This document shows, one piece after another, positions 14,057 to 21,970 of a stretch of DNA of 64,000 nucleotides. The first letter of the stretch is position 1; each line of letters starts with the position of its first letter. The DNA lies in the NCBI GenBank assembly GCA_937863685.1, contig CALMGM010000005.1, positions 434,001 through 498,000 of the forward strand. The letters run 5' to 3'. Source of the DNA: an uncultured bacterium. GTDB taxonomy: Bacteria; Edwardsbacteria; AC1; EtOH8. The position numbers and the translations under genes were made by a program. Below the pieces are notes generated by a model. That model was not told the DNA's origin. It searched no databases and was given only the letters and a program-made list of their open reading frames with translations.

Positions 14057-14083
14057 GGCGTTAAAATTTGGGTTGGGGTTGGT

Positions 14084-14133
14084 GGCTGTCAAAACCCCGG
14101 TAGAATAGGGGCGGAAAATGCAAGGGCGTAATG
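14084..14133. repeat. 50-base direct repeat, left copy (flanks methyltransferase module)
   Basis: Matches 16811-16860 at about 42 of 50 positions (shared core GTCAAAACCCCGGTAG, then ATGCAAGGG). The two copies bracket the methyltransferase plus membrane-protein pair. On the minus strand each carries a possible -10 (TATTCT here, TATACT in the other), so a duplicated promoter is an alternative reading. Confidence 0.6.
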
Positions 14134-14213
14134 AAGCAGCCCCTCCCAAAAGGTAGGGCCAGGGCGGTATAATAGTTTCGTTTGGCTTTGTGGTAACTAT
14201 ATACCCTTACATT

Positions 14214-14828
14214 TCATTTTTTAAAAGAATATAAACCCAAAGTATCAGGTAGCAGTAATTGCTTTTCTGGCATTTTATAGCCCATATATTTTGTACATAC
14301 TTTTTTTATCGCAGGTATTGCATTATTTGTTTCTATAATAAAAACTACCCAACCACCATTTTCCATTATTTGGTTTCCCCTCCAGTGAAAACTTTTTCTA
14401 TCATTACTAAGGCCCAAACCACCTGTCATATTTGCTGTTGATCTTTTATAGTCATAACTAATACCTTTTATGGGGTTTTCAAAATACAGAACAAAAGTAA
14501 AATTTGTAAGTGGCGTTTGTGTGATATTTTTAAATCCCAATTCATAATAGTTATTTGCCCCCATTTTATTCGGGGGTGTTTTCATAGTTTCATAATGTAA
14601 TTCATATTTCGGGGTTTTTCTATCAAGTTCTTCTACACTATAAACGACATTTATCTGGTTATGTGACCCGGTATTGGTAATGGCTGGTGAGTTATTACCA
14701 GAACTCGTCGTAATAATAGTAGATTTATGTGGCAGTAATAAAGCTAAAAATATACCCAATAAACCGATTATTATAGATATTTTAGTAGGTAATGTCCAAG
14801 ATTTAAAGCGTTTATATATTTTTCCCAT
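14214..14828 (-). CDS. small membrane-anchored protein of unknown function
   Basis: 204 residues. Short basic N-terminus (MGKIYKRFKSW), one transmembrane helix (ISIIIGLLGIFLALLL), then a Ser/Thr/Asn-rich linker and a soluble, probably beta-rich domain (YYELGFKNITQTPLTNFTFVLYFENPI). The inside-positive N-terminus predicts an exported C-terminal domain. No family is recognised. It starts 10 bases after the methyltransferase stop with AAAGGT before the ATG, so the two are probably co-transcribed, and it shares the AT-rich composition of the island. It could be an accessory or effector of the restriction module, or cargo. Confidence 0.65.
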   Translation of the reverse strand: MGKIYKRFKSWTLPTKISIIIGLLGIFLALLLPHKSTIITTSSGNNSPAITNTGSHNQINVVYSVEELDRKTPKYELHYETMKTPPNKMGANNYYELGFKNITQTPLTNFTFVLYFENPIKGISYDYKRSTANMTGGLGLSNDRKSFHWRGNQIMENGGWVVFIIETNNAIPAIKKVCTKYMGYKMPEKQLLLPDTLGLYSFKK

Positions 14829-14838
14829 AATTTACCTT

Positions 14839-16557
14839 TTACTCCCCCTCCATCTTCAACTGTTTGCCCTTTCCCCCCTTCACCTTCACTGCTTTCTTGA
14901 AGGTCGCCTCCACCTGTTTTATCGGCGGCATCTCAATTTTCTTCCCGGCCAGCAGTTCCTCAATAGTAAGCAGTTGAAGCTTGGGGTATTTCTGTCCCCA
15001 TGTTTTGGACTCATAAAACCCCGCCGTTACCGCCTCGGTCTGCATGGGCTTGGTGAACTCCTCCATGGCTATCAGCACACCAATGGCCGACTTCTCCCGC
15101 TCCACCACGCCCCGCAGGTCCCGTATATGGTTGGCGTTCAAATGTCCGGCCTTTACCGAGATCACCACGTTCTCGAACACCCCCGGCGCATCACCTTGAA
15201 ATACTATCTTGCCGTCAATGCCCTTGTCTGCCCCTTTCTTCTGCTCTACCGGGCGGGCGTCCACCAGGCCCAAGGCCCACCACTGGAACTGGTACTGGTC
15301 ACTCTCGGCCAAAGCCGCCGCATCCGGTAGGCTGGTCGGCTCGCCCAATACCTTGAACTTTGCTTCTCCGCCAAAGGTATCCAGCAGGCGTTTCTTCATC
15401 AGGGTAATGGCCATATGGGTTATGTCTATGCCTATCCAACTGCGGTTTAACTTCTGAGACGCCGCTATGGTTGTGCCGCAACCGCAGAAGGGATCCAAAA
15501 CCAAACCATTAATTGGGCAAGATGTTTTAATTATTCTCTCCAGTACACCGACAGGTTTTTGTGTATCATAACCTAATTTTTCTTCCTCACTTTCAAGATA
15601 TTTAACATCTTCATCTATGCACTCTTCGCTATTATACAAGACGCCTTTTGTATTTGGTTGATAAGCCCAAATATCTTGGTATAAAACACCTGGGCCTATA
15701 TACTGTTTATACATTGGTTGTCCACCATCTTTTTTGGGGAATAGAACCAAACCTGCGTTGTACAAAGCCTCAAGTTGTTCTTGTGAAGTCATATCATTCC
15801 CATTGTTTGGTATATACTCCCTCAAAGAAGCTGGTATAGCCCAATGGCGTCCAACAGCTGTTGGGTTAAACCCCCTCCATTCTTTTCCGCTGGCACCATC
15901 TCTTTTACCAGGGCCTGTTAAATAATTTGTTTGGTATTTACCTCTTTCGTCTTCATGTTTAAATCTATCAGTAATATAGGCTTTTGTATATGGTCGTGTT
16001 TCTGGTTTAAAAACAAAATCGTCAGTTTTGCTGTAAAATAATATCACATCATGTATAGGTCCATATTGACTTGTCAATTTGTTATGTGCATTTGTCCTAC
16101 GCCATATTATCTCATTATGGAAATTAACAGGGCCATAAATTGAGTCCATGAGCATTTTCAAATAATGTGACGCCGCCGGGTCACAGTGTAAATAAATGCT
16201 GGCCGTGCTTTTCATCACCCTTCTCAACTCCACCAGCCTGGGGGCCATCATCACCAAATAGGCCAGCATGTCGCACGGCCCCATGAAGGTTCTAAAGGCC
16301 TGCAAACAATCGGCCACCTTGCCGCCCTTGGTTACTATCTCGGCAAAAACCTGCTCGTCTTCATTGTCCCAGGTCCAAGTGTCCACAAAGGCGTGTATCT
16401 GCGAGGCCGCCTGGCTGCCGTCCTTCTCCTTAAAAAGCACGTTGTAATTGGCATTACTGTTGAACGGCGGGTCAAGATAAACAAGATCCACGCTTTCATC
16501 GGCTATATGCCGTTGTAAAATAACTAGATTGTCGCCATAGTAAAGCCTGTTTTCCAT
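14839..16557 (-). CDS. beta-class DNA methyltransferase fused to an Mrr-like restriction endonuclease domain
   Basis: 572 residues. The ATG at 16557 is chosen because GGAG sits 7 bases upstream and homologues begin near MENRLYYGDNLVIL. Methyltransferase motif IV (LVYLDPPFNSN, DPPF at 29-32) precedes motif I (LVLDPFCGCGTTIAAS, about 353-367), the order of beta-class N6-adenine/N4-cytosine enzymes. A target-recognition region lies between. The C-terminal part (about 430-530) resembles the Mrr catalytic domain: KGADKGIDGKIVF (D448) followed by VVISVKAG (K469). The usual Glu or Gln two residues before the Lys is Ser467, a variant that could lower or abolish cleavage. Probably a one-polypeptide restriction-modification enzyme. 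GC content is higher at both ends than in the middle, suggesting a mosaic. Confidence 0.8.
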   Translation of the reverse strand: MENRLYYGDNLVILQRHIADESVDLVYLDPPFNSNANYNVLFKEKDGSQAASQIHAFVDTWTWDNEDEQVFAEIVTKGGKVADCLQAFRTFMGPCDMLAYLVMMAPRLVELRRVMKSTASIYLHCDPAASHYLKMLMDSIYGPVNFHNEIIWRRTNAHNKLTSQYGPIHDVILFYSKTDDFVFKPETRPYTKAYITDRFKHEDERGKYQTNYLTGPGKRDGASGKEWRGFNPTAVGRHWAIPASLREYIPNNGNDMTSQEQLEALYNAGLVLFPKKDGGQPMYKQYIGPGVLYQDIWAYQPNTKGVLYNSEECIDEDVKYLESEEEKLGYDTQKPVGVLERIIKTSCPINGLVLDPFCGCGTTIAASQKLNRSWIGIDITHMAITLMKKRLLDTFGGEAKFKVLGEPTSLPDAAALAESDQYQFQWWALGLVDARPVEQKKGADKGIDGKIVFQGDAPGVFENVVISVKAGHLNANHIRDLRGVVEREKSAIGVLIAMEEFTKPMQTEAVTAGFYESKTWGQKYPKLQLLTIEELLAGKKIEMPPIKQVEATFKKAVKVKGGKGKQLKMEGE

Positions 16558-16583
16558 AATATCTCCGCAAACAAAGTTAATAT

Positions 16584-16613
16584 ATGATATATCCAAACCC
16601 CTAAAAAAGTCAA
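16584..16613 (-). promoter_or_regulatory. putative promoter of the methyltransferase gene
   Basis: On the minus strand TTGACT (16613-16608), an 18-base spacer and TATCAT (16589-16584), 26 bases before the start codon. Confidence 0.45.
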
Positions 16614-16810
16614 CGGGGAAACTTAGTTTTGTTGCTATTTTATTTTGGGCCGGTTTCCGTCGGGCTGGCCACACCCTACCACTTCGAAAGCATAATAACA
16701 TGACAACATCAGTGCAGGCTCTCAACACTGTGGTTTGGGATATTTAAACCCCCTCCGCAATGGAGGGGGTGGGCTTGCCCGCCACTATAGGCCCTTTGCT
16801 AATGGCGGGG

Positions 16811-16860
16811 GGCGGTCAAAACCCCGGTAGTATAGCGCAGGTAAATGCAAGGGGTTAATA
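16811..16860. repeat. 50-base direct repeat, right copy
   Basis: Counterpart of 14084-14133. It starts only 18 bases past the stop of the Shedu gene. Confidence 0.6.
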
Positions 16861-16878
16861 TAACGAACTTTTATGATA

Positions 16879-18231
16879 CTATAAATATTTTTGCATAGCC
16901 AACCGTTTCATTTTCTCAAATAACTTGTCATAGGTAATTACTTTAACATATGGGGGTATGGTATCATTTATTTGAATCAATTTTTCATCATTTATGCCTT
17001 TAGGTTTCCTACCAATTACAAGAGATATAGTTGGTCTATATGCAGTAAGTCCGTATTTCTGTAAAATGCTTGCTCTATATTCTTGTTTTTCAAAATAATC
17101 GCGATATTCTCTAACTTGTGCGATTGCACTGTGTATATGTGCACTATAACCAATTCGATTACCCTTCCCTGATATTATGTTAATGTTAGGTAGTTTCAAC
17201 TCTAAAATATCAGCATATTTTTCACCAAGTAATTGTAAAAAATAATCAGGGATTAGTGCACCTTCTTTGTCGATTCTATCAAGGATAGGGTGCGGCACTA
17301 CTTTTTCATAATCAACACCTTTTATAAAGTGTGGGTATTTTTCGAAATATCTTTGGTAATCAGCTTCCTTTTTATTTGTTTCATTGATAAGCTCCTCAAA
17401 TTCATTTAATTGTAAACGCCAAAAAGAACTTAAACAATTCCTAATAATATAAGGGCCCACTGGTATACTTATGCTAGGCTGCAATGACAATAGTTCAGCA
17501 CCAACCCTTGAAGTTGGGTATACTTTTAATTTATCTTTATCTACAGTAACTAATAAACCATTATATCCCTTAGAAAGGGTATTTTCCATACGTTGGATTG
17601 TTAAATCAACATCCTTATTTTCGTTAAACTGATGTACAAAATAATTTAATAATCTTGGATTTTTTAAATCAATATTATTTTTTTCTATTTGATATATAAT
17701 TTTATTAAAATTATCAGTTTCAATTTTATCTGATAAATATTTAACAATCGAATCCATTTTAAGATCACCGAGTGAAATAATATTATAGATCGTGTCACTG
17801 TTTAGCCAAGAACGGCTTCCAAGAACTGCTGGTCTAGTTGTTATTAACAAATGCATATTATTCTTAACAGACAAATGGCGAAAAACTGTTTCTATTTTAT
17901 CATTTGAATTAATTTCATCCAAACCATCTATTATTAATAATGTTTTTGAACTATTGGCAATGTTTTTTTGCAGCATTTCATTAACTTCTTTTATATGCAA
18001 ACTATTTAATGCCCTACCCTGCATGTAAATAACATTTGAAAATAAATGTTTTGCAATTTCCTTAAAATGCAAAACAAGTGCCGTTTTGCCAGTACCAACT
18101 TGCCCAACAAGAAAAGTAATTTTAGTATTTGGTTCATTACTGTACCAATCTATTAAATATTGGATTTCTTCATCCCTTCCAATAAAATTGGTTACGTTAT
18201 TACCAGTATAAAAGGTATTTCGTATCTTCAT
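16879..18231 (-). CDS. STAND-type NTPase fused to a Shedu-like (DUF4263) PD-(D/E)xK nuclease domain
   Basis: 450 residues. The N-terminal NTPase has a lead-in FIGRDEEIQYLIDWY, Walker A GQVGTGKT (43-50), Walker B LLIIDGLDEI (about 98-107) and a sensor-like LLITTRPAV. After a linker the C-terminal 165 residues match the Shedu nuclease pattern: YFEKYPHFI (about 295), IPDYFLQLL (D329), ADILELKLP (E344, K346), HSAIAQVREYRDYF (Q372) and RPTISLVIGRK. Shedu proteins are single-gene anti-phage nucleases with variable N-terminal sensors; here the sensor is an ATPase, implying NTP-controlled activation (inference). A perfect TATAAT -10 box (18262-18257) lies upstream, with no good -35. Composition is AT-rich like the neighbouring helicase. 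The alternative, a general P-loop ATPase with an unrelated nuclease fold, seems less likely. Confidence 0.8.
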   Translation of the reverse strand: MKIRNTFYTGNNVTNFIGRDEEIQYLIDWYSNEPNTKITFLVGQVGTGKTALVLHFKEIAKHLFSNVIYMQGRALNSLHIKEVNEMLQKNIANSSKTLLIIDGLDEINSNDKIETVFRHLSVKNNMHLLITTRPAVLGSRSWLNSDTIYNIISLGDLKMDSIVKYLSDKIETDNFNKIIYQIEKNNIDLKNPRLLNYFVHQFNENKDVDLTIQRMENTLSKGYNGLLVTVDKDKLKVYPTSRVGAELLSLQPSISIPVGPYIIRNCLSSFWRLQLNEFEELINETNKKEADYQRYFEKYPHFIKGVDYEKVVPHPILDRIDKEGALIPDYFLQLLGEKYADILELKLPNINIISGKGNRIGYSAHIHSAIAQVREYRDYFEKQEYRASILQKYGLTAYRPTISLVIGRKPKGINDEKLIQINDTIPPYVKVITYDKLFEKMKRLAMQKYL

Positions 18232-18427
18232 TTATTACTTATAGTAAAACATTAAATATTATAATGGGATGCTGGTCATATTTTGCCCAACATCTCTTTA
18301 AGGTGTTTTATCCCGACCTTCTTCTACGGCCACCTTGCGAATTTTATAAACCAAGCCAGCTATTCGGCCAGGGCCTTTTATTTTGAACGAAGTTTAATTT
18401 GGTTCCTTCTTGGTATCTATCTATAAT

Positions 18428-19975
18428 CTAAATAATTTCCTCTATAAACTTAGATGTCTTTGCGTTATATTTCCTTCTTTTATAATTAAAACGGAATTCT
18501 TTAAAATCAACCTTGTGTGCATCTTTCGCTTCCCATTCCACGGTTGATATTAGATTCAATTCCTTTTTTGCCCTAGTAATACCAACGAATAATAATCTGC
18601 GTTGTGCTTCTATTGTGTCTATTCCTTTTGTCTTGTTTGGAATAATTCCCGTAATTAAACCATTTATAATAACATAATCTGCTTCTAACCCTTTTGACTT
18701 ATGAATAGACATAATATTTACTTTATTGTCAATAAATTCTATGGGTTTACGAATTCTTTTAGTTATGCTTTTTACAGAATTATTTAAGTCGTTTAAATTG
18801 AGATGTTCACGAAATTGCTCAAAAGCAGGATATTCTTTTGTCAAAGCATCAAAATCAGGTGGTGCATCTATATGCATAGCTAAATTGCTGGGCAATTCCT
18901 TGAATATTTTTGTTTCGGTTAAAATAGCATCCGCATTAAACCCAGTCTCCATCTTGCCTTTAAAATAAGCGAGGTGTTTATCTTTCTTAAAAGTTCCGTA
19001 ATATTTTAGCAACAATATTAAGAACAATATTTTTTTATCACCATAAAATATGTTAAGCCACCAGATATTTACCAATTTTTCTTCACTAAGCTCGTTATGC
19101 CAAAAATCGACAAAATCAATACCGTTATCTTTCAATTTATTTTTAACGGCATCAACTGAAAAACCAACGGCGCTTAATAACAAAATACTCGCATTCGGAT
19201 CGCTTTGGCGTATTGTTATTATTTTGTCTAAAATATAGCAATCCGATTCTTCTTGCGTTATATGTTGTTTAATATTTACATAACCGCTCTTGCTTGTTTT
19301 TTCCCATTCCTTAGGTATTCTGTTTTTATTTATATTTATTAACTTTTTAGCATATTCAACAACACTATCTGGACAGCGATAACATAAATTCTCATGCTGA
19401 ATTTTTCCAACGGTTGCATTTTTATATAAAGAAATAATTCCATCCGGGTCAGCATCCTTGAAGCCATATATTGATTGGTCGTCATCACCTAATATGATAG
19501 TTTCGGCAGCAATTTTTGATAGTTGCAGTACAAAGTCCTGTTCGATGGGGTTAAAATCTTGGAATTCATCTACGACCAAAAGGTCAAGTTTGCCTAATTT
19601 ATCAACAAAATAAGCCGGGTTACTTTTTATAAAAGCCAAGCATGCGAGTATCATTTTGTTAAAAGTGATACAATGAAGAATTTCACAAACAGTATCGAAA
19701 GCTATACCCAGTTTTTCAGTTAACCATTTTAATACGTCCTCTTCTTCTTTGATTAGAATATGCAACACGGGTAGATGATTATATTTTAAAGCAAAGCTAT
19801 GAAGTGTCATGCACGTAACATTTTCACATTTTGAGAATTTAGTGTTTAAATCCTTCACGGTAGCATTGGTAAAAGATAGCACCACAATATTTTTACAACC
19901 ATCATATTGTTCGTCTATGATGCTTTTTATTTTTGTTGTTTTCCCAGTACCTGGACCAGCCAATAGGATCTTCAT
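18428..19975 (-). CDS. UvrD/PcrA-like superfamily 1 DNA helicase
   Basis: 515 residues, shorter than typical UvrD (about 720). All main SF1A motifs are visible: I AGPGTGKTT (6-14), Ia VVLSFTNAT, II LLVVDEFQDF (about 135), III ILGDDDQSIYGF, IV CYRCPDSVVEYA, V VNIMSIHKSKGLEADYVI and VI RRLLFVGITRAKKEL. Such short UvrD-like helicases accompany nucleases in defence systems (for example GajB of Gabija). No OLD-family GajA is present here, so this is not a canonical Gabija. It lies between the HNH gene (214 bases upstream) and the STAND-Shedu gene (196 bases downstream), all in one orientation. There is no Shine-Dalgarno before the ATG. Possibly works with the Shedu protein; alternatively an independent repair helicase. 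Confidence 0.85.
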   Translation of the reverse strand: MKILLAGPGTGKTTKIKSIIDEQYDGCKNIVVLSFTNATVKDLNTKFSKCENVTCMTLHSFALKYNHLPVLHILIKEEEDVLKWLTEKLGIAFDTVCEILHCITFNKMILACLAFIKSNPAYFVDKLGKLDLLVVDEFQDFNPIEQDFVLQLSKIAAETIILGDDDQSIYGFKDADPDGIISLYKNATVGKIQHENLCYRCPDSVVEYAKKLININKNRIPKEWEKTSKSGYVNIKQHITQEESDCYILDKIITIRQSDPNASILLLSAVGFSVDAVKNKLKDNGIDFVDFWHNELSEEKLVNIWWLNIFYGDKKILFLILLLKYYGTFKKDKHLAYFKGKMETGFNADAILTETKIFKELPSNLAMHIDAPPDFDALTKEYPAFEQFREHLNLNDLNNSVKSITKRIRKPIEFIDNKVNIMSIHKSKGLEADYVIINGLITGIIPNKTKGIDTIEAQRRLLFVGITRAKKELNLISTVEWEAKDAHKVDFKEFRFNYKRRKYNAKTSKFIEEII

Positions 19976-20086
19976 ATATTTATGCTAAAATAATTGATTT
20001 ACTGTATTGCCACCGTATCGCTTTGCACATGGATCACGGCCATGCGGTGGTTTTTATTTTCTTTAGCTTGGGCTACCAATTTATGG

Positions 20087-20113
20087 TGTTATGTTTTTAA
20101 TAAAAACATAACA
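20087..20113. promoter_or_regulatory. perfect 27-base palindrome upstream of the helicase gene
   Basis: TGTTATGTTTTTA, one central base, then its exact reverse complement. Located 112 bases before the helicase start and not followed by a T run on the minus strand, so an operator fits better than a terminator. Confidence 0.45.
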
Positions 20114-20117
20114 TTTC

Positions 20118-20159
20118 AAAAAACGGTATATTATTACTTATTTAGTATTAAATATACCG
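20118..20159 (-). terminator. probable terminator of the HNH gene
   Basis: CGGTATATT (20124-20132) and AATATACCG (20151-20159) form a perfect 9-base stem over 18 bases, followed on the minus strand by TTTTTT. It begins 30 bases past the HNH stop. The stem is AT-rich and the loop long, so efficiency is uncertain. Confidence 0.45.
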
Positions 20160-20189
20160 CTTTTAGTTTTAAGTTGTCAATTAAAAAGA

Positions 20190-20477
20190 TCAATGCTTTT
20201 TATTATTATTGCCATCTGATGTTACATTGCATTTCAATCGTCCATTACTTTTATCCACATTATTTTCCCACTGTAAGGGCCTCAAATTTGAAAGAGTATC
20301 AGAGCCGCCTGGTGAAATATGGTCTATTTCCCAACCATACTGGGAATTTCTAACCCCATATTTTTCACGTGATATCCATGCATTACATTCATCTTTACGC
20401 CATTTTTTAGAATCATTGCCCTCTACGGTTTTACCCTTAGCCCAAACACTTTCAATCATTTCTTCAGACCATGCCAT
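20190..20477 (-). CDS. small HNH endonuclease
   Basis: 95 residues. AGGGGG lies about 8 bases before the ATG. The HNH core is clear: WEIDHISPGGSD (His53) and LSNLRPLQWENNVDKSNGR (Asn64, Asn72/73). Small free-standing HNH proteins of this kind occur in phages, mobile elements and defence loci. It opens the AT-rich island in the direction of transcription. A dyad next to its promoter and an eleven-unit 21-bp repeat array directly upstream suggest special regulation or a cognate recognition site (inference). Nothing indicates a homing intron. Confidence 0.75.
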   Translation of the reverse strand: MAWSEEMIESVWAKGKTVEGNDSKKWRKDECNAWISREKYGVRNSQYGWEIDHISPGGSDTLSNLRPLQWENNVDKSNGRLKCNVTSDGNNNKKH

Positions 20478-20527
20478 TTTTATACCCCCTTTTATTAATT
20501 TTTTCTGTTTTTTATGTAACCCATTGC

Positions 20528-20548
20528 TGTATAATTGCTAACTGCAAT
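20528..20548 (-). promoter_or_regulatory. putative HNH promoter -10 with adjacent dyad
   Basis: On the minus strand TATACA (20533-20528) abuts a perfect inverted repeat ATTGC-5-GCAAT (20534-20548) that fills the spacer region, as an operator would. Confidence 0.35.
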
Positions 20549-20562
20549 AAATAACCCAAAAA

Positions 20563-20793
20563 CGGTCCCTTTCGGCCTTAAATCGGGACCTTTCTACCCC
20601 CGATCGGTCCCGTTCTACCCCCAATCGGTCCCGTTCTACCCCCGATCGGTCCCGATAGACCAAAGAACAGTCCCGTTCAACCTGTGAACGGGACCGTTCC
20701 AACCCAAAACGGGATCGTTCCGCCCGGCAACGGGACCGATCTCACCGGCAACGGTCCTGTTAATGCCCTCATCGGTCCCGATCTGCCTGCCGG
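20563..20793. repeat. array of eleven 21-bp units with a quasi-palindromic core
   Basis: Eleven units of exactly 21 bases, each starting with a core of the form CGG(TC or GA)CCG. Units 2, 7, 8 and 9 carry the GA form (CGGGACC type) and the rest the TC form (CGGTCCC). The two forms are reverse complements of each other, so each core is an inverted repeat whose central two bases are flipped. Units 2-4 share the tail TACCCCC; others differ outside the core. The spacing of 21 equals two helical turns, placing all cores on one face. The array lies 85 bases upstream of the HNH start. Read as codons on the minus strand it gives heptads but has in-frame TAG in units 2-4. Confidence 0.85.
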
Positions 20794-20869: not shown

Positions 20870-21223
20870 CTAAACCTTCTTCACCCTTGGCCCCTTCCGG
20901 GGGTGAAAACTGCGCGGTGCGATCCCGAACTCCTGCAGTTTCTCCCCGGTCTTGCCGTAATTCCCCTCCAGGGTGCTTACCCAGCGGGCCATCTCGGTCT
21001 TAAGGGCCTTCTGGGTATCCTGCCAGTCAATGGTGCTCTGCTGCAGGGCGGCCTTGGCCCGTTCCTGTTCCGAATTGGCGGCCTGGTAGCCGTCCAGCAG
21101 TTTCTGCAGTTCGGCGGGAATCAGCCCCCACTTGGCTATCTCGGCCTTGTTGGCCTCGCCTCCCTTTACCAGCAGTTTGGCCCCCTCGGAAAAGTCGGCG
21201 GTGGATGATGGGTACCGGCGCAT
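20870..21223 (-). CDS. small charged helical protein of unknown function
   Basis: 117 residues. A near-perfect Shine-Dalgarno (AAGGAGGAG) precedes the ATG, so translation is well supported. The sequence is hydrophilic and helix-rich (KALKTEMARWVSTLEGNYGKTGEKLQEFG split over the C-terminal half), rich in Ala, Glu, Lys and Gln, with a basic end (HPRKGPRVKKV). No signal peptide, no membrane segment, no known catalytic motif. A coiled-coil or nucleic-acid-associated role is possible but not shown. GC-rich, unlike the adjacent AT-rich island. Confidence 0.65.
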   Translation of the reverse strand: MRRYPSSTADFSEGAKLLVKGGEANKAEIAKWGLIPAELQKLLDGYQAANSEQERAKAALQQSTIDWQDTQKALKTEMARWVSTLEGNYGKTGEKLQEFGIAPRSFHPRKGPRVKKV

Positions 21224-21622: not shown

Positions 21623-21970
21623 TTAATCGTTCGGGATCCCCGGCGGTGATATTTGCAAAGTTACCGTACCAAAATTGTAAGCCGTCTGGTTATAATAGAA
21701 AACAGGGGAATACAGGGTGCGGCTGCCGGTTTTTGTGAATTTCAAATAATGGTAGCCGATATCCGGAATAGGCGATCCGGTTACTTCAAAATAACTGTTC
21801 GCGTCGGTCACCCCGTAGCAGGTGGAATGTCCGTAAACAGTTGCTGTCCAGCCGGCACCCAATGAAACGCCGAATTGATTTAAAGCAGTTCCGTAGCAAA
21901 TTCCAGGTAGCGCCATGGCCATACTGGCGACAAATGATAGCAGTAGCATGGTGATAATTACCTTTTTCAT
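21623..21970 (-). CDS. small secreted protein of unknown function
   Basis: 115 residues. AAAGGAAGGAA precedes the ATG. Clear signal peptide (MKKVIITMLLLSFVASMAMA). The mature part is about 95 residues, rich in Tyr, Thr and Gly with two Cys (GICYGT, STCYGVTD) that could form a disulfide, and looks beta-rich. No sorting domain. No family recognised. It stands alone in a repeat-rich stretch between the two copies of a 180-base repeat. Confidence 0.6.
   Translation of the reverse strand: MKKVIITMLLLSFVASMAMALPGICYGTALNQFGVSLGAGWTATVYGHSTCYGVTDANSYFEVTGSPIPDIGYHYLKFTKTGSRTLYSPVFYYNQTAYNFGTVTLQISPPGIPND

Follow-up and report, generated by a model that had tools for sequence, protein, structure and literature searches.

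Described systems with arrays of short repeats

Iteron arrays are tandem direct repeats of 17–22 bp that keep helical phase, lie near the gene of the protein that binds them and have a replicon-specific sequence. The ParR-parC and TubR-tubC centromeres consist of a small protein and, next to it, a repeat array that occupies one face of the DNA, and a phase of 21–22 bp with a partner gene is typical of both iterons and parC-type sites. CRISPR arrays have repeats of about 25–36 nt and unique spacers of similar size. In TIGR-Tas systems, the array stands beside one gene, either upstream or downstream of it, and consists of locus-specific repeats of 8–12 nt with 9-nt spacers (PMC12045711).

The array described here, and others like it, resemble plasmid iterons in being phased tandem repeats of locus-specific sequence near a partner gene. 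They differ in being chromosomal, in occurring as many different copies per genome and in their position after the gene and ahead of varied operons. Their partner is not a Rep protein either: no initiator gene is conserved beside the arrays and no Rep family appeared in Pfam scans. With ParR-parC and TubR-tubC they share a small protein gene beside a repeat array, but no ribbon-helix-helix or winged-helix domain was detected, and no motor NTPase gene lies next to the family gene in the neighbourhoods examined. Short repeats with 9-nt spacers, locus-specific repeats and an array on either side of the gene recall TIGR-Tas; here, in contrast, the spacers of most arrays seem not to be diverse, and none of the Pfam matches listed for 15 members of the family (E up to 10) is a Nop model. 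A CRISPR array was considered and rejected, as the unit here is 21 bp with a strict period.

Structure and position of the array

The window (the whole 64-kb stretch of DNA analysed, from a genome of 2.72 Mb, G000) carries the array on the minus strand at 20562–20792. It consists of eleven units, each exactly 21 bp, with no indels. In gene orientation, each unit comprises a core of about 12 nt, AACGGG(A/T)CCG(A/T)T, and a spacer of about 9 nt; the core is flipped in some units, both orientations being present (CGGTCCCG and CGGGACCG, with TC or GA at the centre). Self-identity of the array is 0.67 at lag 21 and 0.65 at lag 42, against about 0.25, within a range of roughly 0.19–0.35, at lags that are not multiples of 21; elsewhere in the window, the highest value of any 210-bp stretch at lag 21 is 0.44. 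The consensus dyad is significant (p=0.001). TRF detects the array as two pieces, and a comparison with Rfam gave no match. The exact period of 21 bases (two helical turns) proposed in the earlier note is thereby borne out, as is its description of a core kept in both orientations amid free variation: the dyadic core is conserved and the spacer is free.

The array coincides with the edge of an AT-rich island (GC 0.33 to 0.55), where it had been placed before. An AT-rich gap of 84 bp (20478–20561, minus strand) separates it from the first co-directional gene on its 3' side, a 95-aa HNH-like ORF (20190–20477, minus strand; PHROG endonuclease VII, E=7e-7), to which it is therefore 5'. The promoter dyad that had been suggested near the array is not supported, as a scan gives no promoter-like site between the array and the HNH-like ORF.

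An orthologous array is found beside the same 117-aa ORF (described below) in one congener, G002, and is lacking in two others. Between G000 and G002 there is no gap in the 231-bp array, whereas the 88 bp next to it (array to ORF) contain 33 gap columns. Substitutions number 11/132 in the core and 28/99 in the spacer (12-nt core, 9-nt spacer; Fisher P=8e-5). The 21-bp phase, whose survival in related genomes the earlier note had put forward as a check, is thus kept with zero indels, and the core changes more slowly than the spacer. Three window units bearing TAG have TCG in the sister species, and neighbouring units are homogenised. The island side of the array differs between the two genomes, with a Shedu-like island in G000 and a type I-C Cas operon in G002. 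The same chromosomal site is a defence hotspot, occupied by Shedu, GajB-like and methyltransferase genes in the window (14083–20547) and by type I-C CRISPR-Cas in the sister species (L041 10328–19124).

A family of small proteins linked to 21-bp arrays

The 117-aa gene (20870–21223, minus strand), which was absent from the earlier note, directly adjoins the array on the side opposite the HNH-like ORF. It is preceded by an AAGGAGG-like ribosome site, and its product has a basic C-terminal tail and belongs to no Pfam or NCBIfam family; it is the founder of an array-linked family. Twenty homologues are known, all from the same taxonomic family, and in 17 of them a 21-bp array follows on the 3' side. 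The three that lack one are in G002 (C9), near a contig end in G009 (C93) and, as a truncated copy, in G006 (C8). Homologues found after this rule was set (G001 C53, G003 C13, G009 C9 and the second ORF of G006 C8) all obeyed it. At stringent cut-offs, homologues were restricted to one taxonomic family among 386 genomes. Core sequences vary by locus and are common to close relatives; examples from 3' arrays are AAGGCA-nn-TGCCTT, TATTCC-nn-GGAATA and TTCCCC-nn-GGGGAA.

Domain searches detected no known DNA-binding domain in the 117-aa protein, and a PDB sequence search returned only weak coiled-coil or three-helix matches. Judging from its sequence character and its weak matches to coiled-coil families, the protein is probably helical. 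A search of viral contigs for the protein families found nothing. Small secreted-protein ORFs were seen by eye upstream of the 117-aa gene in four loci: in the window (21623–21970, minus strand) and, similar to it, at L041 9185–9544, L154 12493–12903 and L123 5032–5379. In G009 (C84), an ORF with a sigma-70 region 4-like motif and cysteine pairs (L155 5283–5885) lies between the family gene and the array.

Distant relatives of the family, 248 aa long and located beside 5' arrays, match the NCBIfam family PQLLE (NF052641), a family of unknown function, at 145–149 bits (curated cut-off 80 bits); the 117-aa protein of the window itself does not match NF052641. Arrays of 21 bp lie on the 5' side of PQLLE genes in G008, G002 and G009 and of a PQLLE remnant in G000. 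Several members have no array: the one in G114 and a single set of orthologues from G006, G008 and G009. Beside the remnant in G000, a 253-aa, probably helical protein with a basic tail is encoded 5' of the array (L225 19008–19769) and is possibly another relative.

In G012, weak PQLLE matches whose kinship is confined to the domain level pointed to a second lineage (G012, G299, G388 and G394) with its own family of probably helical proteins. There, 21-bp arrays occur at about 18 of 25 loci, mostly directly 5' of the gene and often as 42-bp dimers. Some of these proteins carry an extra C-terminal domain that looks fibronectin III-like by eye and has no Pfam match.

Frequency of the arrays and orphan copies

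An unbiased scan for periods of 14–30 covered 864 kb of the first lineage (800 kb of two genomes plus the window). Four arrays were found, every one of period 21, which gives a background for that lineage of approximately one array per 216 kb; over 210 bp, only 21 and 42 exceed 0.49 among the lags printed between 12 and 60. Besides the window array, these comprise two that adjoin family or PQLLE genes and an orphan of 27 units in G006 C8 (L212 13599–14160), located between a TPR-protein gene and uvrB with no adjacent family gene.

G000 and G002 each contain one further array that has the window core and no family gene beside it. Both are co-oriented and 5' of a gene: that of G000 (L042) lies between yajQ and a GNAT/DUF262-HNH/TIR-like island, and that of G002 (L043) lies 5' of a geranylgeranyl-reductase-like gene, inside a 656-bp insertion that is missing in three congeners. 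Ahead of each of these two orphan arrays lies a conserved 31-bp element rich in GC (CCTACCTGCATGCCCGGC...; L042 9722–9752, L043 9569–9599). Plasmids and phages gave no match to the arrays; the 21-bp pattern was also scanned in 386 genomes and in viral contigs, the latter without a match.

Phase, coding capacity and dyads

Across 26 arrays, the 259 successive unit pairs differ on average by 40% with zero phase slips, a count that carries a mild bias against slips as array limits were set by lag-21 identity. Measured against column-shuffled arrays, stop codons show no depletion in the sense frames (P=0.21) or in the antisense frames (P=0.05), and in several arrays every one of the six frames contains stops. 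The arrays are therefore non-coding, and a reading frame does not account for their phase.

Of 22 independent arrays, 14 have a consensus dyad (p<0.05), mainly those on the 3' side (combined P=3e-18), and no pair compensation occurs at the level of single units (P=0.93). Together these results favour half-sites in duplex DNA over RNA hairpins. RNA folding predicts strong structures on both strands of the arrays; palindromic arrays must give such folds, and the unit-level compensation test, with its negative outcome, was used instead. Among the 5' arrays of the wider group, significant dyads are mostly lacking, and as only 3 of the 18 second-lineage 5' arrays have them, the universal feature is the phase and not the dyad. 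Identity within the 9-nt block ranges from 0.27 to 0.62 against a random value of 0.26, being near random in several arrays. Some arrays are 42-bp dimers, and identity at lag 42 reaches up to 0.95 in some.

Genes downstream of the arrays

In the window, the HNH-like ORF is followed on the minus strand by genes for a UvrD-like helicase resembling GajB (18428–19975), a NACHT-like ATPase with a Shedu SduA C-terminal domain (16879–18231) and, closing the variable defence island, a DNA methyltransferase that carries an Mrr-like domain (14839–16728). Compared with the sister species, the island has its borders at about 14083 and 20547.

In all 16 cases in which the gene after a 3' array could be identified, it is co-directional. 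Bacterial operons often show co-direction anyway (about 0.7), so 16 of 16 corresponds only to a P of about 0.003. A defence system follows 8 of these 16 arrays: the Shedu-like island (G000), type I-C Cas (G002), type I restriction-modification (G004), Hachiman (G006 C1), type IIG enzymes (G009 C84 and G003 C13), an Eco57I-type methylase with HNH (G001 C53) and, the weakest of the eight cases, a DNA methyltransferase with ATPase (G006 C8). HicA follows the array in G009 C9, and the remaining 3' arrays have secreted, chemotaxis or recombinase genes next to them, one being followed by a tyrosine recombinase. No conserved neighbour other than the helical family was found beside the arrays.

As to the HNH gene, the earlier note had correctly placed the array 5' of it, but a special link between the two is not supported: the same array precedes a CRISPR-Cas operon in the sister species and arrays elsewhere precede type I restriction-modification, Hachiman or type IIG genes. 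The partner that stays constant is the 117-aa gene flanking the array opposite the HNH gene, and the window array is no stand-alone operator for the latter.

Proposed function and alternative explanations

We give an even chance to the reading that the array is a locus-private, phased, protein-binding site acting on the downstream operon and paired with the adjacent 117-aa gene. The array and this gene would form one module, in which the small protein, or a partner produced alongside it, would bind its own array with one oligomer per 21-bp unit. Bound oligomers would then all lie on one face of the helix and could build a cooperative nucleoprotein filament. Placed just 5' of the next co-directional operon, such a filament would control that operon, by silencing or timing the expression of newly acquired genes, often defence genes. 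Since every locus has its own core sequence, each protein-array pair would be private. This reading builds on the observed tie of gene to array, the strict phase, the non-coding character, the consensus dyads, the conserved core and the place of the array 5' of a co-directional gene; the protein as binder, DNA as its target and an effect on transcription are the inferred part. Points against it are that no known DNA-binding domain was detected in the protein, that 5' arrays of the wider group mostly lack significant dyads, that defence genes follow only 8 of the 16 3' arrays, that co-direction is common in operons at large, and that the strong 27-unit array of G006 C8 has no adjacent family gene.

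Unlikely, in our estimate, are non-functional minisatellites, which would arise where variable intergenic DNA undergoes slippage or recombination and would merely hitchhike with a fast-evolving gene. The homogenised neighbouring units (TAG in the window, TCG in the sister species), the decay of array edges and the existence of orphan arrays speak for this view. It accords poorly with a strict phase, with 21 as the only period found, with a core that evolves more slowly than its spacer, with dyads in independently evolved sequences and with arrays tied to one protein group in two lineages.

The arrays could also be those of a replication initiator or partition protein, left behind by an integrated element, which we regard as improbable. 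The 21–22 bp phase and the partner gene fit iterons and parC-type sites, and one array is followed by a tyrosine recombinase. A parallel is seen in the O-like replication genes of xanthomonad prophages (L074, L075, L076–L081), in which AACGGGACTGTT repeats occur in both orientations at 22-bp spacing, encode NGTVP/NSPVF and are probably origin iterons inside the gene. Against such an origin, the arrays have no conserved neighbour of the Rep, ParA/ParM or relaxase type, plasmids and phages give no match, and a genome may hold up to about 11 different copies.

Still less likely is a recombination hot spot at which the array serves as landing site for defence islands. The same array does border a different island in each of the two sister species, and arrays at other loci have a variety of defence systems on their 3' side; however, ordinary genes border half of the arrays, and a non-exhaustive look at the other island border revealed no second copy.

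Very unlikely is a guide-like RNA array, in which 12-nt repeats and 9-nt spacers would be transcribed with the gene and processed, as in TIGR or CRISPR systems. The 12+9 geometry or the 42-bp dimers resemble TIGR arrays (PMC12045711), repeats are locus-specific, the 9-nt block approaches randomness in several arrays, and defence systems are nearby. In most arrays, however, the spacers are semi-conserved (identity 0.31–0.62), the high lag-42 identity of some speaks against spacer diversity there, and the partner protein has no Nop or nuclease domain. The decayed heptad-repeat protein gene that the earlier note held as its main alternative is scarcely credible: the period equals seven codons and one frame is open in some arrays, but stops are not depleted, several arrays are closed in all six frames and no peptide is common to the arrays.

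Significance

Taken more broadly, and with confidence a little short of even, we propose that the arrays and their genes represent a class of gene-array module that has not been described before and occurs in several bacterial lineages. In it, a small, probably helical protein would be paired with a locus-specific array that has the exact 21-bp phase as its only universal feature, and such modules would act through private nucleoprotein filaments (guide-type RNAs being less likely) that control adjacent, often defence, operons. No account of the pairing turned up in the open-access literature on 21-bp arrays, PQLLE and iteron phase that was searched, and it may have been noticed earlier elsewhere.

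A fixed 21-bp phase that combines with a freely changing sequence and goes with one group of function-unassigned proteins in distant lineages is not explained by the repeat classes considered here, namely iterons, centromeres, CRISPR, TIGR and coding repeats. The link between gene and array offers a testable lead for families labelled only 'PQLLE' or hypothetical, and it has a simple search signature, lag-21 autocorrelation beside a gene. If this is a private DNA-binding system, it would provide many natural, mutually distinct pairs of protein and site, and it might reveal how genomes keep defence islands under control after acquiring them.
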